Shown here piece after piece: positions 37,248 through 59,166 of a stretch of DNA of 64,000 nt (the stretch's first letter is position 1; each line of letters starts with the position of its first letter). The notes under the pieces were generated by a model. That model was not told the DNA's origin, searched no databases, and worked only from the letters and a program-made list of their open reading frames with translations. Origin of the DNA: Closterium sp. NIES-65 (lineage: Eukaryota; Streptophyta; Zygnematophyceae; Desmidiales; Closteriaceae); assembly GCA_948144175.1 (NCBI GenBank), contig CANXME010002317.1:372001-436000 (forward strand), in the 5' to 3' direction. Position numbers and translations under genes: made by a program.

Positions 37248-38501
37248 TGGGCGAGAGGGGCGGTGATGGAGGGACGGCGGGGCCTATCAGCGCGCGCGCG
37301 CTGAGGGCGCGCGTGGCCTGCTGGCGGAGCCAGCGACTCCTGGCGCGACCGCGACGCCCGGGCGCAACAGGCACGCGCGAGGGTCGTGCGCGCTTCAGTC
37401 GCGCGGCAACGCACCCCGTGCAGGAGCGAAAACTGCCGCCTCTGCTCTCGACAGTGCGGGTGTGATGACGAGAGAATCTTAATCCTAGAACGAGTAATTT
37501 GTGGGGCGTTATAACCCACCGCACTCCGCGCTGCAGTTGTTGATGCAAGCACGGGGCTCACTACGCTTGTAGCGGAGTTGAGATGTTAGCGCGTACTGAG
37601 ATATAAGTGCGTCAAGGAAGAGGTCTGACTTGACAAACTCAGCTACTCGTCAACTCAGACGCTCTGAAGGGCTTGTTCGAACAATCACCGTACTAAAACA
37701 AGTAGATTAATTTTTAAACCGCTCTGTACCATAGCTAACCCCCAAAATTTAATTTAGGAATTCGAACAGCTGGTTACCACCCGAGGTGACACGCTCTGAC
37801 ACAGATCACCTCACGCACCCAGCCACCCCCTATCTGAACCAAGTAACCACACTCTCGCCAAGCCCACGCGAATAGCCCACGCGCCACCCATACAGTGTGT
37901 TCGCTCGCGAAAGTGAGTGTTTTTGGCCCTCGATCTTGCGCGAAGGTCATTGCGATGTTTATTGCGAGCGAAGGTCGTGTGTTACTCACAGCTTCGCTTG
38001 ACAAGTTCGATCTGCCTAACGGATCCGCGAAGTACCTGAACAATTTTCAAACCAGTTGGGTCGTTTCGTAACTGTTGATTTTGGCCAATCAGAATCTCCA
38101 CCCCAAAAACCATGTTCGTGGGTGGCGAGGGTGTGCAAGGCCCAAACCGGGTTACCTGGTTTCTGGCGATTTCAACATCGAGAAACTTGAGCCATCACCT
38201 TTCAGGACCCCACATTGGTTGGGCTGCATGCCCAGTATCATGGTGCTGCAGCTCTTCCATTTTCGTACGTATTTGAACCGAACTACCCACCCTACCCAAC
38301 CGTTTCTCATTCCAGCAAAACATCTTCCCGTTGAGCTGTCAGCTAGACACGCAAAAAGAACATACAAAGATATCCGTTACCACCACCACCCAGCTCCAGC
38401 TATTCCCAGACCGCAGCCGTTTGACCTATCTTTGCAGAAGCGTTCTTTCCGCAGACATTACCTCGTGATACCTCAACTGCCAGTCTTATAGTTCAGGTAC
38501 C
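37248..38501. other. Divergent intergenic region
   Basis: Separates the unknown minus-strand gene from the F-box/LRR gene. GC-rich with CGCGCG words to about 37,430, AT-richer after that. Promoters of both genes are expected here, but no clear TATA box was found. A plus frame at 38,075-38,491 shows no family resemblance and is probably 5' leader. Confidence 0.4.
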
Positions 38502-41283: not shown

Positions 41284-44200
41284 TCAGCGTTTCTGCTTCT
41301 TCGTCCCCACAACCACTTCCCTCACGATGTCTCGCCACAACCCATCCACCACGCCCTCCTGCCCTGCCCGCACCCACGTCCTCACCTCCGCCCTCAGAAA
41401 CTCCCCATCACACTCCCACGCCGCCCTTAGCTTCCCCTTACTATCAACGGGCCCTCTCACATCCCCCCCTCCCCCACCACCACTCTCACCCTTCCCCCCT
41501 GCCCCCTTTCCCCCTCCCCTCACCCCCACCATCAGCCTATGCACCAAATCTCCTGCTCTCCTTTGCCCTAGCCCCTCCGGCCGCAGCAAGCTCGTAGGGT
41601 TACCAGCCAGCACCCCCTGTAACTGCTTCATCGCTCCCACCACCTGCCCCTGCAGCAGCGCGCACGCGAACACAGCTGCCCTCTCTCTGCTGCCTTCCAA
41701 GTCCACAGTGCACTGCGGCAGAGGCCACCGCTTAGGCCCATACACAGCCGCCACCGTCGCGAGAATGCGGTCCGAGGGGGGGTGGTATCGCGGCGGCGGA
41801 TCGGGGAGCGGCTTGGAGAGAGAGCAGAGCGCGGGGCAGGAGGAGGGGAGCCAGGCGGGGTCGACAGCCGTGGTGGTGACGAGGAAGGGGTGGGACTCGG
41901 TTTGAACGATCTCATTGAAGAGCAGCAGCGGCGGGGCGGAGCGGAAGGTGGCGCTGCGCGGGTGCAGCAGCACTGGCTCGTCCATGAACAGTGTCTCGTA
42001 CCGCACGGCACGTTTCGGCAGGGAGTGAGCGGCAACTGCAGCACCTGCTGCAGCTGATGGTTTGTCTCCTGGGGCCATTTTTCTCGCAAGGCGGTCAGGC
42101 CAGCCTGCTGCCAGGCCCCTTCGGATCAGCCCCTCCTCCCACTCCTTCAGCTGCGGCTCCACCCGGCCCTCCCCGGCTCCCGCTCTCCCCGCCCACATCT
42201 GCTCTCCACACTCCACCAGCAAAGTGAGAGGCACAGGTGCAGTGGGGCAGGAAGGAGCAGAGGGTGAGGAGGAGGAGAGGGCGTGGGAGAGGAAGGATTG
42301 CAGGAGGTGGGCGCGGGTGCCTGTGAGGAGCAGGCGGGAGAGCTGGTGGGCGAGCTGAGACATCTCCCTCATGCACCGCTCCCGCAGGTACAACCGCTGA
42401 CAGAACCGCTCCCCCGCTCCCCCCCACCCCCGTGCGCCCCCTTTGCCCCCGCTGCTTCTGCTCTCCTGTCCCCCCTTGCCCGCGCGGACAGCAGCATCGT
42501 AGGCTCGCAGGGCGTTGGCGGCCGTGATGGCGTCGCTGCTGCGACTCCAGAAGAGCGCATGCGCTGCCCGGCGACTCAACGGCCAGCCACCACCCTCTTT
42601 ACTCACGTCACTGCCACCACCACCACCCACACCTGCCCTCGCTTCTCCCTCTCCTCCCCGCCTGCCATCCTCCCCCTCTCCTCTCTGACCCATCACCTCC
42701 GCATCCCCGTGGCTGGCCGTGCCTTCCCCATCATCCCCTTTGCCCGCCGTGCCCGTGTCATCATGGCGCAGGAAAGGACTCTCCACGCTCATGGCCGCCA
42801 CCACCGCTATCGCATACCGCACCACCAGCGCACTCACCCTCCCCACCTCCCCCTCCCCCTCCACCTTCTCCCCCTCCCCCTCCCTTTTCTCCTCCACACC
42901 CACCTCCCTGTCTCTCTGATTCTGGCTGTTCTCACACCCCACGCCCCCACCCTCCTCGTCTGTGCCCCCTTCCATATACCTCCTCTTCCCTTTCCTACCC
43001 GCTCCCCCTCCCCTCCCGCCGTCCAAGCGCTCCCCCGCCTTTTCCCCTCCGTTCCCTGTTCTGCCGCCCATCAGATCTACCAGAGGAACCTTCCTGGCAG
43101 CTTCGAGCAGGATGGCTAGCAGGGTGCGTGCGTGGCGCGGGCTGATTGGCAGGCACGCCATGGCGCGACCCAAAGGGGTGATGGTGGGGGAGGGTGAGGC
43201 GGACGGGGAAGGGGAGGGGGAGACTGGTGGGGGGAGGGCGGAGAGGTGTTGCAGGCAGCGCAAGGCAGAGGCGAGGGAGTGGGGGTTGGGGGACGTGGGG
43301 AAGGGGAAGTTGAGAACCTGGGAGGCGTTGGGGGAGGTGGGGGGGGCAGAGGGTGGTGTGGTGGACGAAAAAGGGAGTGAGGGATACATTGGATTGGGAG
43401 GGTTTATGCAATGGGAATGGAATGGCCTGCAGTTTTATGCCCTCATGCCTCATTCCTCCCAAGGCCTAGACCACACCTTACCCATGCCCAAGGTTAGACC
43501 ACACCGTATCCATGCCCGCACCCTTCATATGGAACAGAGGCAGCAGGACTGAATCTGGTCTGATGCCCCATACTCTCATGCCCCATACCCTCATGCCTCA
43601 TAGCCCTTCGCCTCACCTTATGAATGCCCACACCCTTCCTCTCACCTTATCAATGCCCATGGCCTTCATCTGCAGCACCACGCCCTCAATGGGCGTCCTC
43701 TCGATCTCCGCCTGCCCAAACGCCTCAAACTGGTTGGCAAAAACCGCACTGGAAAAAAGTCTGTAGCACTGCCCCGGCCCTGTTCGCCCCGCCCTGCCCG
43801 CCCGCTGGTCCGCTGAGGCGCGCGAGATCCACTCCACTGTGAAGCGCGCCAAGCCCGCCCCCCCTGTGTGCTGCTTCACCTTGGCGCGCCCACTGTCCAC
43901 CACGTAGCGTATGCCTGGCAGCCAGAGGCAGGGAGGGATGGGGAAGGGGACGGAAGGAGATGATCCAACAACATACCCCACACGTGCAGGTGGGAGTGGT
44001 TCATGGAGGTAGCGGCGGTAACAGGCAGATATGAGGGTTGGGAGGAAGCGCATGTGAGGAGGAAGCAGCCTCAGCCCTAATAAGGCTAATGACTGTCTGA
44101 GGAAACATATATGGAACTGCAAGTGAAAGTAAAGGCGACAAAGAGCAAATTCCGACATTCTATGCCCGAATATCTGAAACGGAGAGAAACACTTGCTCAT

Positions 44201-47200
44201 GCTCAGGGCTTGCTGATCACAAACCTTTACGTGTATCAGATTATTACAACATATCAGATTATTGCAACAGATCGGGCTGTTGGATCAGAATGAACCATTC
44301 TGATCCAACAGCCCGATCTGTTGCAATAATCTGATATGTTGTAATCATCTCATCTGTTGCAATCACCTGATCTGTTGCAATCACCTGATCTGTTGCAATC
44401 ACCTGATCTGTTGCAATCACCTGATCTGTTGCAATCACCTGATCTGTTGCAATCACCTGATGTGTTGCAATCACCTGATATGTTGCAATCACCTGGGATG
44501 GTAATGGAGGTCTCAGCAACGTTGGTAGCGACGACCACGAGGCGGCACCCCTCAGGCACCGCTCCGAACACCTTCAGCTGCTGGGCGGCCGGCAGCATGG
44601 CATACAGCGGCAGCACATACATGCCGCCCGGCCCCGCCTGCTCCCCATTGCCGCCCGGCCCCGCTTGCTCCACTGCCGCTGCTGCCTCCCCTGCCCCAGC
44701 TTCCCCAACTGCCCCTACCTGCTGCATCTCCCCACCCTCGCCTTTCTCCCCACCCTCGCCTTTCTCCCCACCCTCGCCTTTCTCCCCACCCTCGCCTTTC
44801 TCCCCACCCTCCCCCTTCTCTGCACCCAGCAGGCCCCACGTTTCCCACTCCTCCTCCTCATCCTCCTCCTCGTCCTCCTCATAGTCATCTCCCCCCTCCT
44901 CTCCCTCATACTCTCCCCCTTCCACCACTGCCTCCCACTCCGCCTCCTCTTCCTCACCGTCCCTCACACCCCCCAGTGCCTCCTCCCCTTCTCTTTCCGC
45001 CTCCCCCTCGCTCTCCCTCCCATTGCCATCCCGTCCTGCTCTCCCGCTGCTCTCCAGCCGCACAATGGCATCCAGATTTGCATCGGCCTCGCCCTGCTTC
45101 TCCGCACCCCCACCACCCAACTCTCCTGCCTCTTCTCCCTCTTCACCCTTAGCACCACCCTCTCCTCCCTCTGCTTCCACCTCTTCCCTCTTATTCTCGC
45201 CCGTCTTCCCCTCCCCACTCTTTTTCTTGCCACTTCCTCCTCCTTTCACTACATCCCTGCCCCCAGTTCCCCTACCTCTGGCCCACCTGTCCCCACCTGT
45301 GCTGCTCCCCCGCCCCCCCTTTCCTCTATCCCCACCTTCCCCCCTTCTCTGCCCCCCCACCTTCATCGGAAACTTCTTACGAAGCTTCCTGCAAAGGTCT
45401 TCCACCTCCCTCTGCCCGGTCAGAAACACCAAGACGCCCCCAGGGGGCAGCTTCCGATGGATAGCAGAAACTTTTTTCTCGGCTGCCCGAACGTAATCCA
45501 CGAGCTCGGTGCGCCGGGCAAAGTGAACAGTGACGGGGAATTGGCGGGCAGGCACGGAGACGACGGGGGGAGGGCCCGCTGGGAAGAGGCGCGCATTGAG
45601 AGTGAAGTCTGAGATGCGGAGAGTGGCGCTCATAATGATGAGCTTCAGAGGAGGCGGAGCCGAGGAAAGTCGACCGCTGGCCTTGGCCTCGTCGTGCAGT
45701 TTCTGTGGGGTGACAGGGGCAAGGAGAGGGGGAAGAGGCGGGTGTTGGGGGAGAAAAGAGCAAAGGAAGAAGCGGGGGGCAAGGGAGCGAGAAAAAACGA
45801 AGAGGCGCGTATTGAGAGTGAAGTCTGAGATGCGGAGAGTGGCGCTCATAATGATGAGCTTCAAAGGAGGAGGGGCGGAGGAAGGTCGACCAGCCGCCTT
45901 GGCTTCCTCGTGGAGTTTCTGTGGGTGGTGAAGGGAGCAAGTAGGGCGAAATGAGGCGGGAGAAGCATGAAAGAAGGGGAGAGGCGCGCGTTGAGAGTCA
46001 AGTCTGAGATGCGGAGGGTGGCACTCATAATGATGAGCTTTAGAGGAGGAAAGATGGCCAACCGCCTTGGCTTCATCATTTAGCTTCTGCAGAGCGAAAC
46101 ACACAAGGAGCAAGGGACGAAGCAGGTCGAGAGGGAGAAGAAAAAGTGAAGAGGCGCGTGTTGAGAGTAAATTGTGAGATGCGGGGGGTGGCATTTATAG
46201 TGATGAGCTTTAGAGGGGACGGAACGGACGAAGGGCGGTCGCTGGCCCTGACATCCGCGAGCAAGAAGAGAGGGAAGGGAAGAGGTGGTTGTTGGGGGTG
46301 ACGTGTGAGATGAAGAGTGTGGCGCTCACGTGAGCACTCACCCTTGCTTCCTCCATTCGTGCCTGTGAGCTAGCGGAACGACCCCAGCAGCCATGGCAGT
46401 GAGGAATGCTCCTCTCTTGGCAACGGGGCAGAGAGCAGCTCATGCGTTGCTGTGAAGCACACTCGTGTGTCCGCACTCCAGGCACATTGAATGCTGCCAG
46501 CAGCCCTTCTCCTGGGGCTTTAGCCCTCCGGCGAGTGTGCCATGAGCCTCAATCTACTGAGAATAACAGACTGCACGATAGATTCAGCAGGAGAGCACAT
46601 AGAATCGTTTTCACTTTGTGAGGTTGAAGAGAAAGAAAACCTTCAGCGGGAGAAGCCGGATTCCGTAGAGGAGGTTCAGTTTGAGGCGGCCGATGATACA
46701 ATGAGGAAAATCTTGGAAGTTCAAACTCAACTGAGGTTAAAAGAGATGGAGCTTAAGCGCGAGAGAAATTTTGGTCTTCAAGGAGCAAGAAATGACAACG
46801 CTGAGAGGCATGGTCAAGGATTTATGTCGTCCACAGTTTGCTAAAGAACAATTGGAGGCTGCCAATCTCAAGATCAAGAACTTGCAAGATCAAGTGACCA
46901 AGCTGGTAGAGCATCTCGCCATGTTGGAAGTACAACTGACAACAAAGAGAAGACCGACTGATCAAAACTTTGTATTGTTATTACTTTAGCATGGATCGGC
47001 TTTTGTGATCGTTTGCCTGTAAAAGCCCATCCATGCTAAAGTAACTGTAAAATGAGGATCGGTGAACTTGAGGCACAATGAGAGAAGAACAATATATCCT
47101 TAGTAGGAAGATGGTACAAGCCTGAAAGGCTAGAGCAATGTCCTTTCCAAGGATGAGTTCTAGAGAAGTGGGAAGCCACATTTATGTGGCTGAACTCTTG

Positions 47201-50200
47201 AGGCTAGCTGCAGCACCTCAAAGCTGAGGGCAGGGCTAGCCAACCTTGCCAAGCTAGCAATTGAGGCCACATGTTGCACATGTGGGCCAGGCTGGAACAA
47301 CAGCCTACATGGCAGCATGTGGCACACCATAGGAGCCAACAAGGTGAGTATGGGATGGGTGGACAGATGGCAATGCCAACTGTGACCACACTTCACTGTG
47401 GGTGAGTGTGGTGGAGTGTGGGAGTGTCATGTTCGGCATAATGAGAAGAGAAGGTGCTGTCGATGAGAGTTGAACCCGCGACCACTAAGACCAAAGGTAC
47501 CCACTGGGACATTCTTGCTTCCACAACACCCCCCCTCAAGGATGTCCCCGGGGTAGGGTGCCTCAAGAGGAAACATGGGTGAGACCGAGAAGACCACGGA
47601 TGCGAAGAAAAGGGTCACGGGGCAAAGGCTTGGTCCCAATGTCAGCGAGGTTGTCTTGAGTAGGAACATAGTGAAGGGTGATGGAGTGGTCGGCAACATG
47701 ATCGCGAATGAAATGGTGCTTGATGTCGATGTGCTTGGCCTTGGGATGAAAGACGCCATCGTCCTTGGCGAGAATGATGGCACTGTTGTTGTCACACGAG
47801 ATACGGGTGGGGCCGGTAGGGGGAAGTCCAACTGCAGTAAGGAGCGAACGAAGCCATAATGCCTCGTGCACCGCGGCGCCCAGAGAGTAATATTCAGCTT
47901 CACATGAAGAGGTAGCAACGACGGCTTGGCGTTTGGACTGCCAAGAGATGAGTGACGGACCGAGGAAGAATAAGTAGCACGTAACGGAGCGACGCAGCTC
48001 CCCCTCCGGTCCCCAAGAGGCGTCACACCAGCCATGAAGTTCGAGGGTGTCGGGAATGCCACCAAGGAGAAGCCCAAGGGAGGTAGTCCCTTTCAAGTAG
48101 CGAGCAATGCGTTTGGCAGCCGAGACGTGAGGAGTAGACCAATCGTGAAGGTGACGAGCAAGAACTCCAGCGCTATATGCGAGGTCGGGACGGGTCCCCA
48201 CCATGGCATACATGATGGAGCCGACAAACGAGGTGTAAGGGAAGGAGGAGGAGTGCGGGGAGGAAGTCACGGGTGGCTGAAACTTTGTGTCCATGGGAGT
48301 GGCAGCGGGGTTCAGTGGAGAGAAGGAGTAGGTGTCTAGAATGGAGGTGATGAATTTGGATTGATGAAGGTGGAGAGTGCGGGAAGTTCGATCACGAGTG
48401 ATGTGAAAGCCAAGGTAGTAGGAGAGAGGTCCGAGGTCACGAAGTTTGAAGCGAGATGAAAGGGCATGCTTGAATGAGGCAAGAAGAGAGGAGGAGGAGG
48501 AGAGAATGATGAGGTCGTCAACATAGACGAGAAGCATGAAGAAGGATGCAGCTGTAGGCCGATAAGGTGAGTGAGGAGGAGCAATGAAGAGGCCGGGGTC
48601 CGCACGAGCAGCAAAGAGGTGAAAGGCAGCAAGCTCCTCACGAAGCTTGCGGTACCAGCATCGCGGAGCTTGCTTCAACCCGTACAGCGGTTTGTGCAAG
48701 AGACAAACTTGCTCAACACCATGGACCGCCGGAAGGTCATAACCGGGAGGCTGCATCATGTAGAGAATCTCATCAAGGGTGCCGTTGAGGAAGGCGTTGG
48801 AGATGTCCAGCTGATGGACGTCCAGGTTGAAAGCGGCAGCTATGGTGAGAAACAAGCGGAGGGTGGCGAAGCGGACGGTAGGAGCAAAGGTGTCATGAAA
48901 ATCAACACCATCACGTTGCTTGAAGCCTTTGACAACAAGGCGGGCTTTGCGGCGTTCAATAGAACCATCAGCGTTCTCCTTGACCTTGAAAATCCATTTG
49001 CATGGAATCGGCTTGCACTTGGGTGGTCGAGGAACAATGCTGTAGGTGTCATTAGCGTGCAGGGCAGCGAGTTCCGCATCAGCAGCCTTGATCCATTCGG
49101 CAGCATCAGGGCCGGTACGAGCCTCATGAATGGTTTGAGGTTCGTAATGATGGTGAAGGGCAGCATTGGCAGAGGTGTTGGAAAGAGGAGGAAGAGTGAA
49201 GTCAATGGGTTCGGAAGGGGATGGTAAGACCTTGAGGAAGGAGAAAAGGGAAGGATCGGGAAGAGCTGAAGGGGATGGCGGGGAGGAGCGAGTCGTGCAA
49301 TGGGGAGGGGGAGGCGAAGAGGGAGGAGAGAAGGATGGAAGGTGAAAGTCTTGCGGCGTCGAGGGCAGAGGAAGGTTGGAAAACAATGGAGGAGGAGAAG
49401 ATGTGGCTGGTGCGGGCAGGTTTGGGGATTGTGGGTGGGGGTTGGTGGAGGAAGGTATGGTGGGGGAAGGAGAGGGAGGGGAGATTGGGTCCAAGGAAGA
49501 AGGGTGTGTAGGAGGAGGTAGTGAGGAGGATGTGGGTGGAGATGACGATGGAGGGTCGCGAGAGTCGTCGGAAGGCGGTGTAGAGGGCTCCATGAAGATG
49601 ACATCACGAGAAAGGATGACACGGTGCTGAGACGGGATATAGATGCGGTAAGCTTTGGTGCCGTCGAGATGACCATATCCAACCATGATGCCGGCCGTGC
49701 TTCGGTCGTCGAGCTTAGAACGCCGTTGGGAAGGAATGAGGACCGAGACGGGTGAACCGAAGATGCGGAGGTGTGATACATCCGGACGTGCACCGGTCCA
49801 TAGTTCCATGGGAGTCTTAGAAGTTGAACCACCCCGACTAATGGCATGATTACGAAGATAGGCAGCAGTAAGAGCGGCTTCACCCCACCAGCCTTTGTCC
49901 ATGTGTGCATCATGGAGCATGGAACGGACCATCTCAAGTAAAGTCCGGTTGGCCCGCTCAGCTACTCCATTTTGCTCAGGTGTGTATGGCGTGGAGAGGT
50001 GGCGGGCGATGCCACGAGCTGTAAGGAATGAAGTGAAGGCTTTGGAAGTGAACTCCAAGGCACCGTCAGAGCGAAAGGTTTTGATGGTGTGTGGGGAATG
50101 CATGTTGTGCACCCGAGTGACGTAAGCCTTGAAGCATGAAAGTGCCTCCGACCGGTGGCGTAGGAGATACACTGTAATGTGGCGGGAGTAGTCGTCGATG

Positions 50201-53200
50201 AAGGTGAGAAGGTAGCGAGCGCCGCCAATGGTAGTTCCATATGAAAGCGGTCCAGCAATATCTGAGTGAGTGAGTTGGAGTGGGGCTGTGGAATTGAGGT
50301 TGTATGCACCCTCCATGTTACGGCTTGTACCAGATTGTGACCGCTCCCAATCGGCATCGAGTAGGCGTGACTGTAGGTATTCAACCGTCATAGACTTTAT
50401 GTCTTTCACGGTGCAAATGGTTTCAGTAAGGGTCTTGAACGAGTCCGGAAGGTTGAGGATGATGGAGATTACCACCACCCATGATGGTAGCTCAAAGCCG
50501 GCAGATTTGAGTTGGTGTGTAAGGTTTCCAACTCGATCAAAGTAAGAGCGAAGACTTGTTGTTGGGTCCATCCGTGTAGTGATGAGATCCCGGAGGAGAG
50601 CCACTTGTGCATGGTTGCCCATGCAGTCGAACCGCGCCATGATGCATCCCCACATATCCTTTGTCGTGTTGGCTTGAGCAAGAGTGAGCGATAGTTGAGG
50701 ATGGACGGCTGACATGAGAAGATAGTATGCATGCTCCTCTTTTTCTTCATCCGGCAGCGAAGCAATCGAATGGGCTGTCTTAGGGGCTGCACCGCTGTTG
50801 CCTTCGGTAGTCTCTCCACCGCTGGTTGTGGAAGAGGAGATTGAAGGACGCGAAGCAACCTTGGGATCTCCAAGGAGGGAGATCAGCCCGAGGACAATGA
50901 AGATGTAGCAGATCTTTTTCTTCCATGGAATGAAGTTGGAACCATCTGGTTCCAAGATGGGAAGGGTGTGCCGACCGAGAGGCGTTTCAACTTGAGCCAT
51001 GAAGTGTGCAACGTTCACTAAGCTAGAAGCCTTGCTCTGATAGCATGTAGAATGAGGATCGGTGAACTTGAGGCACAATGAGAGAAGAACAATATATCCT
51101 TAGTAGGAAGATGGTACAAGCCTGAAAGGCTAGAGCAATGTCCTTTCCAAGGATGAGTTCTAGAGAAGTGGGAAGCCACATTTATGTGGCTGAACTCTTG
51201 AGGCTAGCTGCAGCACCTCAAAGCTGAGGGCAGGGCTAGCCAACCTTGCCAAGCTAGCAATTGAGGCCACATGTTGCACATGTGGGCCAGGCTGGAACAA
51301 CAGCCTACATGGCAGCATGTGGCACACCATAGGAGCCAACAAGGTGAGTATGGGATGGGTGGACAGATGGCAATGCCAACTGTGACCACACTTCACTGTG
51401 GGTGAGTGTGGTGGAGTGTGGGAGTGTCATGTTCGGCATAATGAGAAGAGAAGGTGCTGTCGATGAGAGTTGAACCCGCGACCACTAAGACCAAAGGTAC
51501 CCACTGGGACATTCAAGCTGGTAGAGCATCTCGCCATGTTGGAAGTACAACTGACAACAAAGAGAAGACCGACTGATCAAAACTTTGTATTGTTATTACT
51601 TTAGCATGGATCGGCTTTTGTGATCGTTTGCCTGTAAAAGCCCATCCATGCTAAAGTAACAACAATCCAAAGCTTTAATAAGTCGATCTTCTCTTTGTTG
51701 TCAATTGTACTTCCAACATGGCGAGATGCTCTACCAGCTTGGTCACTTGATCTTGCAAGTTCTTGATCTCAAGATTGGCAGCCTTCAATTGTTCTTTAGC
51801 AAACTGTGGATGAGATAAATCCTTGACCATGCCTCTCAGCGTGGTCATTTCTTGCTCCTTGAAGACCAAAATTGCTCATTTCGCGCTAGAGCTCCATGTC
51901 CTTTGACCTCAAGAGTTTGAACTTTCGAGATTCTCCTCATTGTATCCTCGCCCGCCTCAAACTGAACTTCCTCCACGAAATCCAGCTTCTCCCGCTGAAG
52001 GTTTTTTTTCTCTTCAACCTCACAAAGAGAAAACGATTCTATGTGCTCTCCTGCTGAATCCAACGTGCAGTATGTTTCTCATCTCTTCATGCACTCATCC
52101 ATACCCAATACTCGTGTGTGTCCGTGCTCAAGGCACTGTGGATGAATCATGAATGGAGAGGGCCATACAGGGCATACAGGGCCATACAGGGCCATATAGG
52201 GATGAGCAAGGGGCGAACACGAACATGTTCGTGTTCGCCCCTACACGAACACAGCGTTTACCGAACCGAACACTGTTTGGTTCAGCGAACACTTTTAGCA
52301 AAAACAGGTGTTGCCGTTCGCCTGTGAAGGCGTGTTCAGAGGAACCTCGAACACGTTCGTGTTCGTCGCGGGGCAAATTGCAGCAGCGGCCCAAACACGA
52401 ACGTGTCCGGGCGAACCTCGAACACTGTTTGGCGAACACTTTACGCAACGAGGCGAACCGAACAGGTGTTCGTTTTTTTTCTCAACCCTAGGGGCATACA
52501 GGGCCATACAGTGCCGTACAGGGCCATACACGGCATACAGGGACTGGGCGCGGCTGCTGTGCTTTGCTCAATTGCTGCATACAGAATAGACAATCAGTGC
52601 CCCGTCCCTTTATGCCCTGCGCCCACACCCAAATTTGTAGTCGATGTTTTAGTGGACTCAAAATCACCCCCAACCTCCCCGGCCCACCACATGCTTGGCG
52701 GAACGGCACGATGCAAGAAAACAGCCTTGCCCTGGGCCGGCGACTGTGAGCAATGACCATCCTCCCCACCCTCCCTTGCCCTCTCCCTTCACCCCTCCCT
52801 TTTTTCCCCTCTACCCCCGTCTCCCCCCCACCCCTCGTTACCACCAACGTGCCTGGCGGAGGGGCACGATGCGGGAGAGCAGAGCAGCACCCACCCTACC
52901 CCCCTCCCCTTTGCCCCCAACGTGCCTGGCGGAGGGGCACGATGCGCGAGAGCAGCCCGACGAGGATGTCGGTGTTGACGCTCCGCTCATGCGCCTCGTC
53001 CAGCACCACCGCGCTGTACTGCCGCAACAGCAGGTCCGCTTGCACCTCGCGCAGCAGGATGCCATCTGTCATGATCTTAATGGCCGTGCCGCCCGCCACA
53101 TGGCGGTCGTACCGCACCTGCAGGAGGCCCAGAACGCACCCCCAAAGCGCACCACCATAGGATACCGGTTGTTCGTTAAGAATGGATTGAATTACAACAA

Positions 53201-56200
53201 GGGAAAGGGAAATGTGAGGAGCAATGCATATAAAAAAAAAACTTGAGGAGCAAGAAAGAGTGACTAGCAAGGTAAGGGGAGAACGTGACCAACAATTAAT
53301 TTGGAGAAAAAATGGTTTCAGGTCAATCAAAGTATAGACGCACCTGGTAGCCCACCTCCCTGCCCACGGTGACTCCCATCTCATCCGCTATGCGCTTGGC
53401 CGTTGCTAGCACTGCCACCCTCCTCGGCTGAGTCACGGCGATCATGCCGGGTGTGCCTCCCGGGAGGGACGAGCCGTACCCCGCCTCGTACAGAAACTGG
53501 GGCAGGGAGGGAAGGGGGAGGGGAGGGGAAGAGAGGAAGGAGGGGGACAGGCATATCAAAACTCACGCCTGGCCGTGGCTAGCACTGCCACTCTCCTTGC
53601 TTGAGTGACGGCAATCATGCCGGTTGTGCCGCCCGGGAGGGACGAGCCGTACCCTGCTTCATAGAGAAACTGGGGCAGTGGAGAAAAGGGGGGCAGGGGG
53701 GGAGGGGGGAAAAAGTGAAGGTGAGGGAGAGCGGAGGCAGAGGAGAGAAGGAGAGGAAGGGAGTGATTTGCACGAAAATTTCCTACCTGCCGTTCCCACC
53801 GGCTCTCTTCGGGAAGAACGGGCCGTACCTTGTCTCAAAGAGAAACTGGGAGGGGGGAGGAGGTAGGGGTCTAAGAGAAAGGACCTTCTCTCACGCCCCG
53901 CTTGCCCCCATAACCCCTGCACCCCCCTCTCCACCTCCCCTCAACCACCCACACGCCCCTCCGCCACACACCTGCGGCACTTGGGTCGTTCTGCCCGACC
54001 CCATCCCACTGCACACGGAGATGGCAGGGCAGGCCCGCATGTACCCTCCCCTTCCTCCCCCCACCCACGCATTTCCCCTTCCCCACCCCACACACCCGCA
54101 CTCACCTGTGGCACTTGCGTGGTCTTCCCCGACCCTGTCTCGCCGCACACAAGCACGGCGTTGCTGCCCCCCACCGCCTCCATCACCTCGCCTTCCATTG
54201 CCACCACTGGCAGCCCCGCCCGCTGTGCCTCTATCTCCTCCCGCCGCTCCACCCGCACCCACAGCTTCCCTCCCCTCTGCCCCGCCTGCTGCCCTCCCTG
54301 CTCCCCTTGACCACCACCCTCCCCTCCCTGCTCTGGCTTGCCTTCCAATTCTTTTCCCTGCTTTCTCTGCTCCGCCTCCTCTGCTGCTCCTTTGCTCTCT
54401 GCTGCCTGCTGCTGCTCTCCTTCCTCTGCGCTGATGACGTCATCCCTGACCTCCTCCATTCGGTGCCCCTCCTGTTCGCCCAGCAACCCCTGATTCTCCT
54501 CTACTTTCCTGTCCCCCACCTCTTCACCTTGTTGCTTCCCCTCCTCTCCCTCCTCCCCATCATCGCTATCACTAACCTCTCCCTCCTCTCTGCTTCCCTC
54601 CTCTCTGCTTCCCTCCTCCCCACTGCTCTCCCTACTCGTGTCCCCCTTCACTTCCGTCGCCATCGCTTTATCCGCACCGTCCCCACCTCCCATGCCCTCT
54701 GCAGCCATCTCTTTCATCTCCACCTCCATCCCCACACACTTTCCTCTCTTCACTGCTCCTTCCCTCCCCTCCTTTCCTCCCTTTACTGCCCCTTTTTTCC
54801 TCTCGCCCACCCCACTCTCTTCCCCCTCGTTTCCCCCACACCTCGCCCTCCCCCTCTCATCCTTCCACGCCAACAAGCCTTCAACCCTCTCATCCGCACT
54901 ATCCTCATCATCCCCTTCCTCACTTTCCTCCTCACTCTCCCTCCCTCGCCCCCCCGCCCGTCTCTCCCGCAGCAGCAGAGCCTGCAGGGCAGCAGGGGGG
55001 GTCAGCCCTGCCTCTACAAACGCCTTGGCGCGCTCAACCTTCTGCTTGCTGCTGCCACCCTGCTGGGAAATAGTGGCGTGTAAGGGAGGCAGAAAAGGGG
55101 GGGAGAAGAGGAAGGGGGTTAAAGGAGGGGTCAGCCCTGCCTCTACAAACGCCTTGGCGCGCTGCACCATCTGCTTGGCGCGCTGCACCATCTGCTTGGC
55201 GCGCTGCACCATCTGCTTGGCGCGCTGCACCATCTGCTTGGCGCGCTGCACCATCTGCTTGGCGCGCTGCACCATCTGCTTGGCGCGCTGCACCATCTGC
55301 TTGGCGCGCTGCACCATCTGCTTGCTGCTGCCACTCTGCTTGCTGCTGCCACTCTGCTTGTGGGGAGGGAGAAGGAGGGTTGGGTAGGAAAGAATGGAAG
55401 AAGGGTTTCCACGATTTCTCAAATCCACCCATCCCGGGGGGTCAGCCCTGCTTGCGCTGCCACTTGGGGATGAGGTTAGGGCAGGGTCAGGTAGGGTGGG
55501 GAAAGGGTGGACGGAGCAGGGTGGGGGGAGGCGGGTAGGGGAAGGAGGGTAAGGAAAGGCGGGTAGGGGAAGGAGGGTAAGGAAAGGCGGGTAGGGGAAG
55601 GAGGGTAAGGGAAGGAGGGTAAGGGAAGGAGGGTAAGGGAAGGAGGGTAAGGGAAGGCGGGTAAAGAGGACAGGTATGAGAGGGCGGATATGCAGTAAAA
55701 AAGATGGAGAGGAGGGGGCCAGGGAAGAGTAGAGGGGGTGAGGGCACAGGAAAAGGGGGGAGGCGGGGGCGCACATGCACACACGCACGCACACACTAAG
55801 TACCTTCGTGCAACCTGCTACTCTCACACTTCCGCCCATCAACTGCCTCACCTCACTCCCCCACTTCTCCGCTTCCCATTGCCCTCCCCTTGCCCTCCCC
55901 TTGCCCTCCCCTTGCCCTCCCCTTGCCCTCCCCTTGCCCTCCCCTTGCCCTCCCCTTGCCCTCCCCTTGCCCTCCCCTTGCCCTCCCCTTGCCCTCCCCT
56001 TGCCTGCCGCTTGCCCTCCCCTTGCCCTCCCCTTGCCCTCCCCTTGCCCTCCCCTTGCCCTCCCCTTGCCCTCCCCTTGCCCTCCCCTTGCCCTCCCCCT
56101 GCCCTCCCCTGCCCTCCACTTGCCATTCCCTGTCCCCCTCTCATCTCTCCTGCCCCCCCACCCTCCCCGCACCTGTCCCAATGTGCTGCTGGGTGCCATG

Positions 56201-59166
56201 AGATGCAGTGCGGTGGCCGACGCCTCGTGCTGCCTGGGGGCGCAATGGGGAAGGGTGGATGGGGGGTGGCAAGGGGAATGGGCCAAGAGGAACAGGCAGT
56301 GGGGCGAACAGGCAGTGGGGCGAACAGGCAGTGGGGCGAACAGGCAGTGGGGCGGGCAGGCAGTGGGGCGAACAGGCAGTGGGGCGAGCAGGCAGTGGGG
56401 CGAACAGGCAGTGGGGCGAGCAGGCAGTGGGGCGAACAGGCAGTGGGGCGAACAGGCAGTGGGGCGAACAGGCAGTGGGGCGAACAGGCAGTGGGGCGAA
56501 CAGGCAGTGGGGCGAACAGGCAGTGGGGCGAACAGGCAGGCAAGCAGCACAATCACCCAGGGTGCTCTGCCAGCGGCGGCGGCAGCAGCAGTGGCAAGTA
56601 CATTCAAATGACACATGCACCTGCCCGCCGCCGTCGCTGCGGACACAAGAGCGCTCATAGTGCAGGGAAACCAACAAGGTGTACAGAGACGATTTCGAGA
56701 CGTCTCAAAAATCATGCGGTGCGGTAACCCAGTTACGCAGGATCCTGCAGAACGCAGCATGGTGATGATGAGGAAGCAGCACGGTGATGAGGAACATACT
56801 TGACTCGGGGAAGTTGGAATGGGGGGAAAGGAGGAAGCGGTGAAGACGAAATGGGAGGGAGGGGGGGGAGCGGGGAACAAGAAACGGGAAAACGGGAGAA
56901 GCAAGGGACAAGGAGTGAGGGGAATGGGGAAGCTGGGAAGATGGACATGGGCGGCAAGGGAAGATGGACATGGGCGGCAAGGGAAGGGTGAGTAATGCAC
57001 TCACTGCAGCAGCAGTGAGGGACGAGTGAGTGATGCACTCACTGCAGCAGCAGTGAGGGACGAGTGAGTGATGCACTCACTGCAGCAGCAGTGAGGGACG
57101 AGTGAGTGATGCACTCACTGCAGCAGCAGTGAGGGACGAGTGAGTGATGCACTCACTGCAGCAGCAGTGAGGGACGAGTGAGTGATGCACTCACTGCAGC
57201 AGCAGTGAGGGACGAGTGAGTGATGCACTCACTGCAGCAGCAGTGAGGGACGAGTGAGTGATGCACTCACTGCAGCAGCAGTGAGGGACGAGTGAGTGAT
57301 GCACTCACTGCAGCAGCAGTGAGGGACGAGTGAGTGATGCACTCACTGCAGCAGGTGGATGGCTTGCTTGCGCTTCATCTTCTTCTCCCTCTCCTCCTGC
57401 CATGCACGCACGCGCCCCATGCCCAACATGCACCCCATGCCCCCCATGCCCCCCATGCCATGCCACCCATGCATCGCACCCCACCCATGAGATGAGAGTG
57501 GAAAGGGGGGGAAACCAAGGGCAGGGTAGGGGAGGAACGAAGGTGCAGGGAGGTAGGGGAAACACAGTGAGAGGGACGAGGATGTGGTAAATAGAGCATT
57601 CCTAAATGAACGGAATGGCTGCATGCACCATTCCTCACCACCCCTCTCACCACCCCTCTCACCACCCCTCTCACCACCCCTCTCACCACCCCTCTCACCA
57701 CCCCTCTCACCACCCCTCTCACCACCCCTCACCAGCCATCACCTGCAGCTGCTGCACCTCGCGCCTCTCTCACACACATTCTCACCACTTCCTCTCCCCC
57801 ACCTCTCAAACCAACCAACCCACTTTCCCCCAACAGCACGTTGACAATTACAAACCCATCTCCTCCACCCCGACCCCCAGCCCCAGCCCCCTACCTTCCC
57901 CCCAACCTTCCCCTCCCCCTTCCCCCTCCCCCCTCCCCCCTCCCCTTCACCTTCCCCCCCCAAGCCCCCCCCTCCCCTTTCCTTTTTCCTCCCCCACAAA
58001 TTGTCACCTGGATGCGGCGCAGCTTGCGCTGCACGCGCTTGCTGTTGCGCCGCTTCTTGCGGTCGTCCACCAGCTCCAGCTCATCGTTGTCCAGCGCCAC
58101 GTCAGCAGCCACGTCAGCGCCGGATGCCAGCTCAGCTTCGACCCCGTCCACTCGCTGCGGGAGAAATGCAGAAAGGCAACCGTGATATGCAAGGTGGGGC
58201 CATAGAGCTCACTCACGGAGTGCCATGCCATGCATGCATTTCACCCACAAAACCTTAGGACCAAGTGACTTTTGCATCGACTATAAAGTCACCCCGAGAG
58301 CTTTCCACTCAAAAGGTCATGGTTGTCACGAAACGACATACATTCCACTTACTCAAACTGCCCAAAACCCACCTGATAATACCTCCCCCTCCTGCAAAAG
58401 ACTTCCTCCTGCTGAAACCCCCCTGCCTGCCTAAAACCCTCCGCCTGCCAAAAAACCCTCTCCCTGCCTAAAACCCTCCGGATGTCTAAAACTCTCCGCC
58501 AGTTTCGAAACATCCGCCTGCCTAAAACCTTCCACCTGCGCAGGAGGTCCCTGGCGCGGTGCTCCTAGCAGCACTGCTGCTCCGCCCAGCGCACCTCGCA
58601 GGGCTCGTGGTAACGGCTGCCCCGCGCGCACGGCGCAGCGGGCGCGATGACGAGCGCGTTGCTGCCGCCGCCGTCATCCCCCACCGCGCTGCCGTCCTCC
58701 CCGCCCAGCGGCAGCGGCGGATTGCCTTCGTGGGCCCCGCGCCTGCCGTGTACGCGGAGATAGCGGATGCGCGCGGAACGGGAAGGGGGAGCCGGGGGGT
58801 TGGGGGTTGGGGGGAGAGGGTGGGGGGAGGGAGAGACGAGGAGGTGTGGGAGGAGGGGGGAGCGGGGAGATGGAAAGGGGATCTTAAAGAACGCGCGAGC
58901 GACGAGGAGGCGAGGGGGATGAAGAACAGCAAGGGCATTTCCTCGTCGCGCTCGCGAGGTCTACTGAAGTAAAAACTTTAAGATTTAAGGTAAGAGGCGA
59001 CCGCTGCCGCTACTGCCGTTACCGCCGCTACTGCCCTACCGCCCTACTGCCGCGGCACACGAGGCGAGCCCGCGCAACCCGCGCGCACGCGGGGCTCCGC
59101 GCTGCCGCACCTGGGTTTCCGCGTGGCGCGCTTCAGCTGCGCCTTCTTCTGCTTCGGCCGCCCCAT
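41284..59166 (-). CDS. DHX37: DHX37/Dhr1-type DEAH-box RNA helicase, 11 exons (plant DEAH13)
   Basis: Nucleolar ATP-dependent RNA helicase; in yeast and animals this family releases U3 snoRNA from pre-ribosomes during small-subunit assembly. Exons (minus): 59,166-59,111; 58,742-58,595; 58,154-58,008; 57,396-57,347; 56,233-56,173; 55,059-54,106; 53,496-53,344; 53,117-52,926; 45,702-44,493; 43,914-43,646; 43,317-41,284. All phases agree, giving 1757 residues. Motifs: [10 protein letters not shown] (about 460), Ia TQPRRVA (494), II DEAH (563), III SAT (612), LVFLTGQ (680), [25 protein letters not shown] (1027), then the HA2/OB region ([19 protein letters not shown]) and C-terminal LLHPRSATF. It is longer than animal and plant relatives (about 1150-1250) because of acidic and Gly-rich inserts. 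Exon 8 ends at a GC donor. Exons 1-5 are short and less certain than 6-11. Confidence 0.93.
43600..43645 (-). repeat. Second copy of the exon-10 donor (echo)
   Basis: The exon end GGGCATTGATAAG|GTGAGAGG at 43,646 is followed 33 bases later by GGGCATTCATAAG|GTGAGGCG. The adjoining intron also has tandem words CATACCCTCATGCC. Confidence 0.75.
44243..44345. repeat. Perfect 50-bp inverted repeat with 3-base loop
   Basis: Bases 44,243-44,292 are the exact reverse complement of 44,296-44,345; the loop is AAC. It lies in intron 9 at the far end of the donor minisatellite, and its arms contain diverged units of that minisatellite (TATCAGATTATTGCAACAGA). Confidence 0.92.
44338..44492 (-). repeat. 18-bp minisatellite made of exon-9 donor copies
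   Basis: About eight units of ATCAGGTGATTGCAACAG (minus) start exactly at the exon-9 splice site, CCATCCCAG|GTGATTGCAACA. Each unit recreates CAG|GTGATT. Confidence 0.85.
44735..44820 (-). repeat. 18-bp coding repeat in exon 9
   Basis: About five in-frame copies of GGCGAGGGTGGGGAGAAA, coding GEGGEK, in the acidic insert between LVFLTGQ and motif V of the helicase. Confidence 0.8.
45790..46380 (-). repeat. Array of four decayed copies of the exon-9 start (acceptor echoes)
   Basis: The true exon starts at 45,702 ([28 protein letters not shown]...[16 protein letters not shown]). Upstream copies begin at about 45,918 ([17 protein letters not shown], still in frame through motif III), 46,086 ([10 protein letters not shown], shifted), 46,256 ([20 protein letters not shown]) and about 46,375 ([20 protein letters not shown]). 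Each retains an acceptor-like CAG or AG. Decay increases with distance from the exon. Confidence 0.88.
46545..47045 (+). pseudogene. Left arm: coiled-coil gene fragment
   Basis: Two overlapping frames (46,542-46,844 and 46,771-46,989) encode Glu/Lys/Leu-rich heptad-like sequence. A one-base shift near 46,775 separates them. The source gene was not recognised. A 15-bp-stem hairpin (TACTTTAGCATGGAT) sits at 46,979-47,042. Confidence 0.55.
46900..47045 (+). repeat. 146-bp direct repeat flanking Copia E, left copy
   Basis: Appears identical to 51,515-51,660. Copia E is bracketed by these, not by a normal 5-bp target duplication. Confidence 0.9.
47053..47511 (-). repeat. Copia E 3' LTR
   Basis: 459 bp, identical by eye to 51,053-51,511. 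Confidence 0.9.
47563..51000 (-). CDS. Copia E gag-integrase-RT polyprotein without protease (1145 residues)
   Basis: Start at [20 protein letters not shown]; an upstream in-frame start would reach into the primer region and is less likely. Gag (about 1-245, ends [14 protein letters not shown]) runs directly into the integrase core ([51 protein letters not shown]). The zinc knuckle, Asp-Ser-Gly protease and HHCC pre-integrase block that normally lie between are absent. A Ser/Pro-rich linker follows, then RT (YVDDLIIL) and RNase H ([11 protein letters not shown]), ending LLGLTHVSS. There are no stops or shifts. It could not process itself and would need protease from a partner element. Confidence 0.88.
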   Translation of the reverse strand: MAQVETPLGRHTLPILEPDGSNFIPWKKKICYIFIVLGLISLLGDPKVASRPSISSSTTSGGETTEGNSGAAPKTAHSIASLPDEEKEEHAYYLLMSAVHPQLSLTLAQANTTKDMWGCIMARFDCMGNHAQVALLRDLITTRMDPTTSLRSYFDRVGNLTHQLKSAGFELPSWVVVISIILNLPDSFKTLTETICTVKDIKSMTVEYLQSRLLDADWERSQSGTSRNMEGAYNLNSTAPLQLTHSDIAGPLSYGTTIGGARYLLTFIDDYSRHITVYLLRHRSEALSCFKAYVTRVHNMHSPHTIKTFRSDGALEFTSKAFTSFLTARGIARHLSTPYTPEQNGVAERANRTLLEMVRSMLHDAHMDKGWWGEAALTAAYLRNHAISRGGSTSKTPMELWTGARPDVSHLRIFGSPVSVLIPSQRRSKLDDRSTAGIMVGYGHLDGTKAYRIYIPSQHRVILSRDVIFMEPSTPPSDDSRDPPSSSPPTSSSLPPPTHPSSLDPISPPSPSPTIPSSTNPHPQSPNLPAPATSSPPPLFSNLPLPSTPQDFHLPSFSPPSSPPPPHCTTRSSPPSPSALPDPSLFSFLKVLPSPSEPIDFTLPPLSNTSANAALHHHYEPQTIHEARTGPDAAEWIKAADAELAALHANDTYSIVPRPPKCKPIPCKWIFKVKENADGSIERRKARLVVKGFKQRDGVDFHDTFAPTVRFATLRLFLTIAAAFNLDVHQLDISNAFLNGTLDEILYMMQPPGYDLPAVHGVEQVCLLHKPLYGLKQAPRCWYRKLREELAAFHLFAARADPGLFIAPPHSPYRPTAASFFMLLVYVDDLIILSSSSSLLASFKHALSSRFKLRDLGPLSYYLGFHITRDRTSRTLHLHQSKFITSILDTYSFSPLNPAATPMDTKFQPPVTSSPHSSSFPYTSFVGSIMYAMVGTRPDLAYSAGVLARHLHDWSTPHVSAAKRIARYLKGTTSLGLLLGGIPDTLELHGWCDASWGPEGELRRSVTCYLFFLGPSLISWQSKRQAVVATSSCEAEYYSLGAAVHEALWLRSLLTAVGLPPTGPTRISCDNNSAIILAKDDGVFHPKAKHIDIKHHFIRDHVADHSITLHYVPTQDNLADIGTKPLPRDPFLRIRGLLGLTHVSS
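51053..51511 (-). repeat. Copia E 5' LTR
   Basis: 459 bp. Followed on the minus strand by the primer-site variant. Confidence 0.9.
51515..51660 (+). repeat. 146-bp direct repeat flanking Copia E, right copy
   Basis: Same as 46,900-47,045. It runs AAGCTGGTAGAG to CTAAAGTAAC, then leads into the spacer and inverted right arm. Confidence 0.9.
51661..52065 (-). pseudogene. Right arm: inverted copy of the coiled-coil fragment
   Basis: Minus-strand frames 52,063-51,845 ([20 protein letters not shown]) and 51,869-51,675 ([18 protein letters not shown]) match the left arm with scattered substitutions and an extra change around 51,885-51,920. Confidence 0.6.
52155..52545. repeat. CGAACAC-rich palindromic element inside a GGGCATACA minisatellite
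   Basis: GGGCATACAGGGCCATACAG-type units flank both sides (52,160-52,200 and 52,492-52,545). Between them are many CGAACAC/GTGTTCG words, including a perfect 32-bp palindrome at about 52,206-52,237 (arms of 16, GGGGCGAACACGAACA). This looks like a small non-coding transposon (hAT-like termini are possible), but target duplications were not fixed. Confidence 0.5.
52690..52890 (-). repeat. Two echoes of the exon-8 end (GC donor)
   Basis: The true exon ends [10 protein letters not shown] at 52,926 (CTCCGCCAG|GCACGT). Copies lie at about 52,850-52,890 ([19 protein letters not shown] intact) and 52,692-52,735 ([20 protein letters not shown]). The farther copy is more diverged. Confidence 0.85.
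53565..53860 (-). repeat. Two echoes of exon 7
   Basis: Exon 7 (53,496-53,344) starts [21 protein letters not shown] copy at 53,669-53,567 reads [20 protein letters not shown] then [14 protein letters not shown]. It has an intact acceptor (CCCCAG) and runs into GTGAGT, but is 103 bp, so inclusion would shift the frame, and motif Ia is changed from PRR to ARR. A third copy near 53,855-53,805 is reduced to [13 protein letters not shown]. Confidence 0.88.
53968..54022 (-). repeat. Echo of the exon-6 end (Walker A region)
   Basis: Exon 6 ends [20 protein letters not shown] at 54,106. A copy 84-138 bp downstream reads [21 protein letters not shown]. The Walker A Lys is Arg. Confidence 0.82.
55125..55470 (-). 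repeat. Echoes of the exon-6 start with a 21-bp minisatellite
   Basis: Exon 6 starts [20 protein letters not shown] at 55,059. A copy reads SGSSKQ, then about eight tandem KQMVQRA units (CAAGCAGATGGTGCAGCGCG plus C, 21 bp; 55,150-55,335), then [12 protein letters not shown] third remnant near 55,440-55,465 has only the AGLTP region. So the second echo itself expanded into a minisatellite. Confidence 0.85.
55540..55680. repeat. GGGTAAGGGAAGGA repeat
   Basis: Tandem units of about 14 bp, alternating GGAGGGTAAGGGAA and GGCGGGTAGGGGAA. Intronic. Confidence 0.75.
55875..56112. repeat. 11-bp minisatellite CTTGCCCTCCC
   Basis: About 21 units in intron 5 of the helicase gene. It gives long 11-residue periodic frames that are not genes. 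Confidence 0.9.
56290..56548. repeat. 16-bp minisatellite GGCAGTGGGGCGAACA
   Basis: About 15 units in intron 4, close to exon 5; a few units have GAGCA or GGGCA. Long periodic frames on both strands are artefacts. Confidence 0.9.
56988..57346 (-). repeat. 38-bp minisatellite made of exon-4 donor copies
   Basis: Exon 4 ends CACCTGCTGCA|GTGAGTGCATCAC at 57,347. Directly downstream, about nine units of 38 bp each contain CTGCTGCTGCA|GTGAGTGC and then ATCACTCACTCGTCCCTCA. Every unit therefore repeats the last exon bases and the complete donor. Confidence 0.9.
57630..57740. repeat. 12-bp minisatellite TCACCACCCCTC
   Basis: About nine units in intron 3. On the minus strand each has GTGAGA. It starts next to CAGCTGCAG|GTGATGG, which may be a lost exon edge or another echo of exon 4. 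Confidence 0.8.
58420..58560. repeat. Degenerate CCTGCCTAAAACCCTCCG repeat
   Basis: Roughly six 18-20-bp units in intron 2, just downstream of exon 2. Confidence 0.6.

Follow-up and report, generated by a model that had tools for sequence, protein, structure and literature searches.

Echoes of exon edges in the introns of a DHX37/Dhr1 helicase gene and of other genes of Closterium sp. NIES-65

How does the edge of an exon, with its splice site, come to be repeated in the intron beside it? The question is raised by a helicase gene in the window, i.e. the whole stretch of 64,000 nucleotides of Closterium sp. NIES-65 DNA that was analysed here. Closterium is an alga of the class that forms the sister group of land plants, and to our knowledge the lengthening of introns other than by mobile elements is poorly documented. 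In a genome whose junctions hold graded series of past copies, the rate, age and direction of intron growth would be directly readable; such a genome would also show how splicing copes with intact decoy sites. The copies, which we call echoes, are real, recurrent and broader than one gene.

The DHX37 gene and its surroundings

The gene encodes a DHX37/Dhr1 helicase and runs on the minus strand from 59166 to 41284. Its 11 exons, spliced without the echoes, form one continuous open frame of 1757 aa; all introns are of the GT-AG type except intron 8, which has a GC donor. The predicted protein belongs to DHX37/Dhr1 by its DEAH core, its OB fold and its orthologue-level similarity. The domain profiles OB_NTP_bind and HA2_N score above their cut-offs (DHX37_C and HA2_C below theirs), and the best match of the core with a solved structure, by alignment, is yeast Dhr1. 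Among the best 120 matches of each search, the relatives are DEAH13/DHX37 proteins of plants and other eukaryotes, including the Closterium strains NIES-54, NIES-53, Naga37s-1 and Yama58-4. The gene model is as follows.

59111..59166, minus strand: exon 1 (start codon at 59166)
58595..58742, minus strand: exon 2
58008..58154, minus strand: exon 3
57347..57396, minus strand: exon 4
56173..56233, minus strand: exon 5
54106..55059, minus strand: exon 6
53344..53496, minus strand: exon 7
52926..53117, minus strand: exon 8, followed by the GC donor
46330..52600, no strand assigned: mobile-element block in intron 8 (Copia-type retrotransposon nested in inverted-repeat sequence)
44493..45702, minus strand: exon 9
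43646..43914, minus strand: exon 10
41284..43317, minus strand: exon 11 with the stop codon

The Copia-type element of intron 8 has an open frame at 51099-47563 and two 469-bp LTRs at 99.8% identity, and is nested within larger inverted-repeat sequence; with its LTRs this young element spans positions 47046-51514 of the window. The first 27 kb of the window contain several other Copia-type coding stretches (594-26549), and a long open frame with leucine-rich repeats (38469-41015) adjoins DHX37 on the opposite strand.

Echoes at the splice junctions of two genes and in further loci

The 20 splice junctions of DHX37 were tested with 50-nt probes from the exon edge against the adjoining intron, a junction being passed at a score of at least 30 that was also above 100 dinucleotide shuffles. 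The probes were exon-only, chosen so that pyrimidine tracts flanking the splice sites give no help. A clear echo was found at five junctions (where exons 6, 7 and 9 start and where exons 6 and 8 end), while 15 failed, including every junction of introns 1-4, 7 and 9. With a looser cut (p<=0.01) seven of the 20 pass, the additions being the end of exon 10 (score 27) and the start of exon 11 (score 29); the latter match is pyrimidine-rich and doubtful. The initial annotation had named eight echo junctions. Five of them are solid and the end of exon 10 is weak, whereas the ends of exons 4 and 9 carry satellites that have 8 and 3 exon bases, respectively, in common with the exon; the exon 4 array is classed as a satellite and not as an echo because it has merely those 8 bases in common. 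That acceptor copies lie upstream and donor copies downstream is built into the adjoining-intron search and so is no separate result. The echoes and arrays of DHX37 are listed below.

56980..57354, minus strand: 38-bp x 9.9 satellite at the end of exon 4
55123..55340, minus strand: echo of the exon 6 start, 55 exonic bases at 93% (55177-55123)
53936..54016, minus strand: echo of the exon 6 end, spanning the donor with its GT intact, 45 exonic bases
53810..53869, minus strand: echo 2 of the exon 7 start, acceptor AG kept
53566..53702, minus strand: echo 1 of the exon 7 start, 104 exonic bases, AG kept
52821..52882, minus strand: echo 1 of the exon 8 end, GC donor kept
52674..52726, minus strand: echo 2 of the exon 8 end, GC kept
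46270..46335, minus strand: echo 4 (fragment) of the exon 9 start
46145..46262, minus strand: echo 3 of the exon 9 start, 75% identical
45975..46086, minus strand: echo 2 of the exon 9 start, 79% identical
45796..45918, minus strand: echo 1 of the exon 9 start, 87% identical
44234..44495, minus strand: 18-bp x 10 array with inverted repeat at the end of exon 9, excluded from the echoes
43617..43642, minus strand: weak echo of the exon 10 end, 21/26 match

A 21-bp x 8.2 array has grown out of the exon 6 start echo (55324-55153), and an extra partial copy with AG begins at 55340. The array (window 55153-55324) is perfect and the frame stays open into exon 6, so that it could be coding if an upstream acceptor were used. 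The GC donor of intron 8 (52924-52925) is retained in both its echoes; a read-through residue in NIES-54 implies a GT donor there.

In DHX37 the edge probes matched non-adjoining introns in one of 162 trials, and probes from exon interiors matched the adjoining introns in two of 108. When the gene is compared with itself, and the mobile-element block and satellites are set aside, every duplication touches an exon, with a single simple-repeat pair in intron 8 as the exception.

The initial annotation had treated the echoes as special to one gene, which they are not. A gene for the RH3 helicase has echoes at 11 of its 16 junctions by the same edge-probe test. Its model, spliced without the echoes, equals the NIES-64 protein at 828 of 828 residues, and this protein (P0230, labelled partial) uses the exon-proximal sites at all eight introns. 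As had been claimed, it is the copy adjoining the exon body that lies in the reading frame. Over both genes together, 16 of 36 junctions give an edge-probe match in the adjoining intron, against one match in 260 trials with non-adjoining introns; since both genes were picked for showing echoes, these rates overstate those of the genome. The earlier statement that copies usually get worse with distance from the exon was a fair one, but it describes no rule: the nearest copy is the best at seven of the nine multi-copy junctions of the two genes, and the order is strict at six of nine.

In the RH3 model of Naga37s-1 (P0229) the last 24 residues match (24/24) an intronic echo of the gene in the assembly of the window, L009:6929-7000, running into a stop. 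This echo may be used, or may be mis-annotated, in that strain.

A Helicase_C search of the genome revealed part-domain copies within a few hundred bases of each other in other genes. A DEAD-box helicase exon ending in VDLV is followed by two copies with the same end residues, and the start of a SNF2-type exon is preceded by two copies. A tblastn search with one DHX37 orthologue against the other loci gave no match. Loci L009-L017 were chosen partly for repeated part-domains in the Helicase_C search, L018-L027 are strong PF00271 matches and L029-L034 were picked blind; second copies (L010, L012, L014, L017 and L021) were left out of the counts of clusters, offsets, spacers, outer partners and splice motifs. 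By self-comparison at offsets of at least 60 bases, none of the 14 non-redundant gene loci is free of clusters of copies (72 clusters over 139 kb), and four of the six blind stretches have them too (18 clusters over 48 kb), some of these clusters being longer arrays. In 11 other gene loci, judged without gene models, 25 of 55 copy pairs have a splice-site motif at the end where one belongs, vs 95 of 550 controls (45% vs 17%, p=5e-6). The corresponding figures for the four blind stretches that have pairs (the other two are pairless) are 7 of 18 vs 22 of 180 (39% vs 12%, p=0.007).

Anatomy of the copies and their proposed origin

The usual anatomy is that of a mostly exonic copy, a spacer and a second copy, at an offset of about 130-170 bases. 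Among 99 non-redundant pairs from 14 gene loci the median offset is 159 (IQR 131-212) and 56% lie within 110-180; the spacer has a median of 77 bases (IQR 50-119, n=114, with spacers of 5-250 bases admitted). Of 67 pairs of all ages, 55 have a spacer without an outer partner and 12 have one with. In young pairs, with at least 90% identity, the spacer lacks a homologous outer partner in 16 of 17 cases. Five of the 17 sit in short-period arrays (two in the window, one each at L011, L013 and L033), the sole pair with an outer partner among them, and all 12 non-array young pairs lack one. The pairs scored in this test are ones other than those of the exon 9 array. By eye, a short outer stretch of the young pair L033:4929 resembles its spacer, with an indel. 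Since the spacers of young non-array pairs have no outer partner, most such pairs are probably no plain tandem copies. Flush tandem duplication of a nucleosome-sized unit, suggested by the peak of offsets, is disfavoured as a general mechanism by the unrelated spacers of young non-array pairs, but may apply to exon 9.

At 16 echo junctions the copied stretch has, in gapped alignment, a median exonic part of 60.5 bases and a median intronic tail of 16.5 (0-62). Its mean intronic share is 0.195 (n=16) vs 0.5 for uniform placement, a value that 200,000 simulations did not reach, although the mostly exonic share is exaggerated by faster decay of intron sequence. Gapped figures were used here because ungapped tails (median 6, with zeros imposed by rule at 6 of 17 junctions) are too short. 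Inspection by eye recognized splice sites in six of 12 young pairs from other loci, with tails of about 7-22 bases (L027:7086; L015:8318, 9414 and 9706; L033:4929 and 7683); of the rest, L033:6698 looked as if its intronic part were longer, L023:7335 looked exonic throughout, and four were arrays or unread. At 17 junctions there are 31 copies with at least 20 exonic bases; 20 of them cover the splice dinucleotide and 18 of these keep it, so intact decoy sites are common.

We propose, giving the idea about one chance in two, that the echoes are local duplications made at exon edges by the repair of staggered breaks, the displaced copy becoming intron. A typical event would copy about 30-155 bases of the exon edge, in most cases taking in the splice site and a little of the intron. 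The break would be staggered (paired nicks); fill-in of its ends and their joining would leave between the copies an unrelated filler, 50-120 bases long in the middle half. As the displaced copy cannot join the exon body, selection would act solely on the proximal copy and the displaced one would decay as intron, neutral and ignored by splicing. Repeated events would give series of copies, so that introns lengthen. Breaks would favour exon edges since the low-complexity ends of introns break more easily. Some arrays, exon 9 among them, may instead be plain tandem copies. The copy-spacer-copy anatomy has the marks of staggered-break repair, namely short direct repeats flanking the join, with or without filler. 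Against the proposal stands that no event has been caught arising and no filler has been traced to a source, and against copying specific to edges, that probes from exon interiors in the two genes also matched adjoining introns (4 of 135 trials). The initial annotation was right that edges bearing splice sites are copied into adjoining introns with the exon-proximal copy kept; plain tandem duplication, the mechanism it suggested, would fit some of the cases only.

The next reading, to which we give a smaller though substantial chance, has no need of a link with splicing: short duplications would arise at random throughout the genome, those in exons being purged and those in introns fading, while those at junctions stay visible. 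The 18 clusters found in the blind stretches speak for it, as do the many purely intronic short-unit arrays in introns. It is opposed by the mostly exonic make-up of the copied stretch, by the excess of splice-site motifs in the pairs of the blind stretches too, and by the placement of duplications. In the two modelled genes, 15 of 17 duplication groups touch an exon (in DHX37 five, plus the one intron-only simple-repeat pair; in RH3 10 of 11) vs 0.2-0.5 expected per unit, with the mobile-element block 46330..52600 masked. This comparison of junctions with intron interiors had been set beforehand as one that could refute the claim, and it came out in the claim's favour. The excess has p of about 3e-4 at a chance of 0.45, 0.012 at 0.6 and 0.077 at 0.7, and is weakened because intron-only pairs decay faster and are hence hidden. 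A preference of duplications for splice junctions is thus likely, not proven.

More tentative still is a stronger form of the repair proposal, in which the mutational process itself would be anchored at the splice site: breaks near the exon border would copy the edge and insert filler, many genes would have introns that lengthen at their ends, and contraction could later exchange the edge for an echo. Exon 9 in other Closterium strains bears on the last point. The Naga37s-1 DHX37 model starts with two exon 9 echoes that are orthologous in place, linkers included, to echoes 3 and 2 of the window; it then enters an exon 9 edge that is identical, over its 40 residues, to the intronic echo 1 of the window. 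The NIES-54 model contains clear copies of the exon 9 start and, more weakly, an apparent copy of the exon 8 end, and that of NIES-53 has two intron 6 stretches resembling the exon 6 end. The predicted proteins of the three strains appear to read through echoes, a warning for annotators, whose models would be translating echoes as protein.

The orthologous position of the exon 9 echoes makes them older than the split from Naga37s-1 and hence no assembly artefact. Echo 1 of the window differs from exon 9 at 13 of the first 120 bases. Between the window and Naga37s-1, about 5 of 87 residues differ in the non-exonic read-through (hand count, indels left out; about 2.6% of bases). As the divergence of echo 1 from the exon exceeds that between strains, loss of one exon 9 unit by contraction in Naga37s-1, with the echo becoming the exon edge, is tentatively the likelier course (p about 2e-5 under a clock, from protein data); a gain of the extra copy in the window after the split is disfavoured by the same comparison.

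The exon 9 array differs from the usual anatomy in that its pyrimidine-rich linkers are alignable (37 of 54 bases between exon and copy 1, 36 of 58 between exon and copy 2; 471 columns at 72%), and it may therefore have arisen by plain tandem copying. The array is a mosaic, five aligned columns joining the exon with copy 3 and five joining it with copy 1, and a simple age series was not borne out.

An insertion origin was also considered. A small mobile or hairpin-forming sequence would insert with long target duplications (30-130 bases) and leave as its trace the palindrome TTTTGAG-NNNN-CTCAAAA. Direct repeats flank 16 of 20 palindrome sites vs 145 of 600 random positions, the 20 including second copies and three sites from one array; without second copies and array repeats the figure is 11 of 15 (p=1e-4). 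The palindrome fills the whole 19-base spacer at L015:632 and L029:5584 and is present in 7 of 114 spacers vs 9 of 570 random segments (p=0.009). It is absent from the other 107 spacers, none of the counted DHX37 or RH3 spacers holds it, and the copy lengths vary, unlike an ordinary transposase footprint, so we regard this origin as improbable. The count of palindrome sites, and that of the looser form below, include the second copies L010, L012, L014, L017 and L021 plus L028.

The palindrome, with its variable four-base centre, is an observation in its own right and often lies between direct copies (L015:632, 5399 and 8394; L029:5584, 6788 and 6889; L011:4986 and 9358; L024:6320-6953). A looser form, with any centre of 2-14 bases, matches 35 times in 306 kb (a figure that includes second copies and one array) vs 3-9 times in five simulated sequences.

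Very improbable, in our judgement, is a functional role, with echoes serving as alternative exon edges or as decoy splice sites that regulate the gene. Retention of the splice dinucleotide in 18 of 20 covering copies would fit such a role, but by a hand estimate the mean identity would leave about 15 of 20 intact. At echo 1 of exon 9 the reading frame continues without a stop into the exon, whereas echo 2 is disrupted by an 11-base deletion. Prediction error may explain both the apparent read-through of echoes in the models of three strains and the end of the Naga37s-1 RH3 model within one; the NIES-64 RH3 protein uses proximal sites alone. Lastly, an error of assembly or of haplotype joining can be all but dismissed, even for a repeat-rich genome with long-read assemblies, two of six of which are described merely as moderate drafts in the sections covered of the genome paper (PMC10407611), as the initial annotation's concern on this point is countered by copies only 64-98% identical to their exon, by the same arrays on contigs C1718 and C2188 and by the orthologous exon 9 echoes of Naga37s-1.

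Comparison with known systems

In the open-licence literature, searched by titles and starts of abstracts, we found no description of such exon-edge echoes. Introners, which are dispersed copies of one element, resemble the echoes in that intron sequence arises in large numbers; in the two modelled Closterium genes, the edge probes match non-adjoining introns of their own gene in 1/260 trials. Small duplications from staggered double-strand breaks were reportedly the subject of a rice study by Vaughn and Bennetzen in 2014, and paired nicks are said to have been treated by Schiml in 2016. Such duplications are an established outcome of repair according to the sections covered of a further paper (PMC8355091). 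They share with the Closterium echoes short direct duplications from the fill-in of single-stranded ends, but occur at induced or unselected breaks, whereas the Closterium copies lie at splice junctions, mostly with filler.

Alternative duplications with internal sequence between the units are described, in the part covered of a preprint (PMC12633238), where Okazaki-fragment flaps are mishandled. There too, two copies are parted by extra sequence; those duplications were described in yeast and in human cells in which FEN1 and related enzymes are missing or inhibited. The sections covered of the Closterium genome paper describe variation in gene copy number and give mean intron lengths of 485-554 bases; echoes are not mentioned there (PMC10407611).

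In the tandem genomic duplication model of intron gain, an exonic AGGT segment is duplicated and a new intron results (sections covered of the review PMC3443670; Rogers model as told in PMC4974935). As in Closterium, a local duplication carries splice-site sequence, but the model creates a new intron, whereas the Closterium introns known here are lengthened with no new intron. The nearest published case that we found is the RdRp gene of potato, in which, by the part covered of that report, a single duplication across an intron-exon boundary made a new intron, with support from RNA-seq and phylogeny (PMC4974935). The duplicated stretch there likewise crosses the boundary, with acceptor, polypyrimidine tract and exon start. 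Potato had one event, a new intron and a copy kept as exon, in contrast to several events per gene in Closterium, displaced copies in an existing intron and mostly unrelated filler. The mechanism of the echoes is put forward as a proposal, and the echoes themselves differ from the known cases in their number, in their usual filler and in the lengthening of introns.
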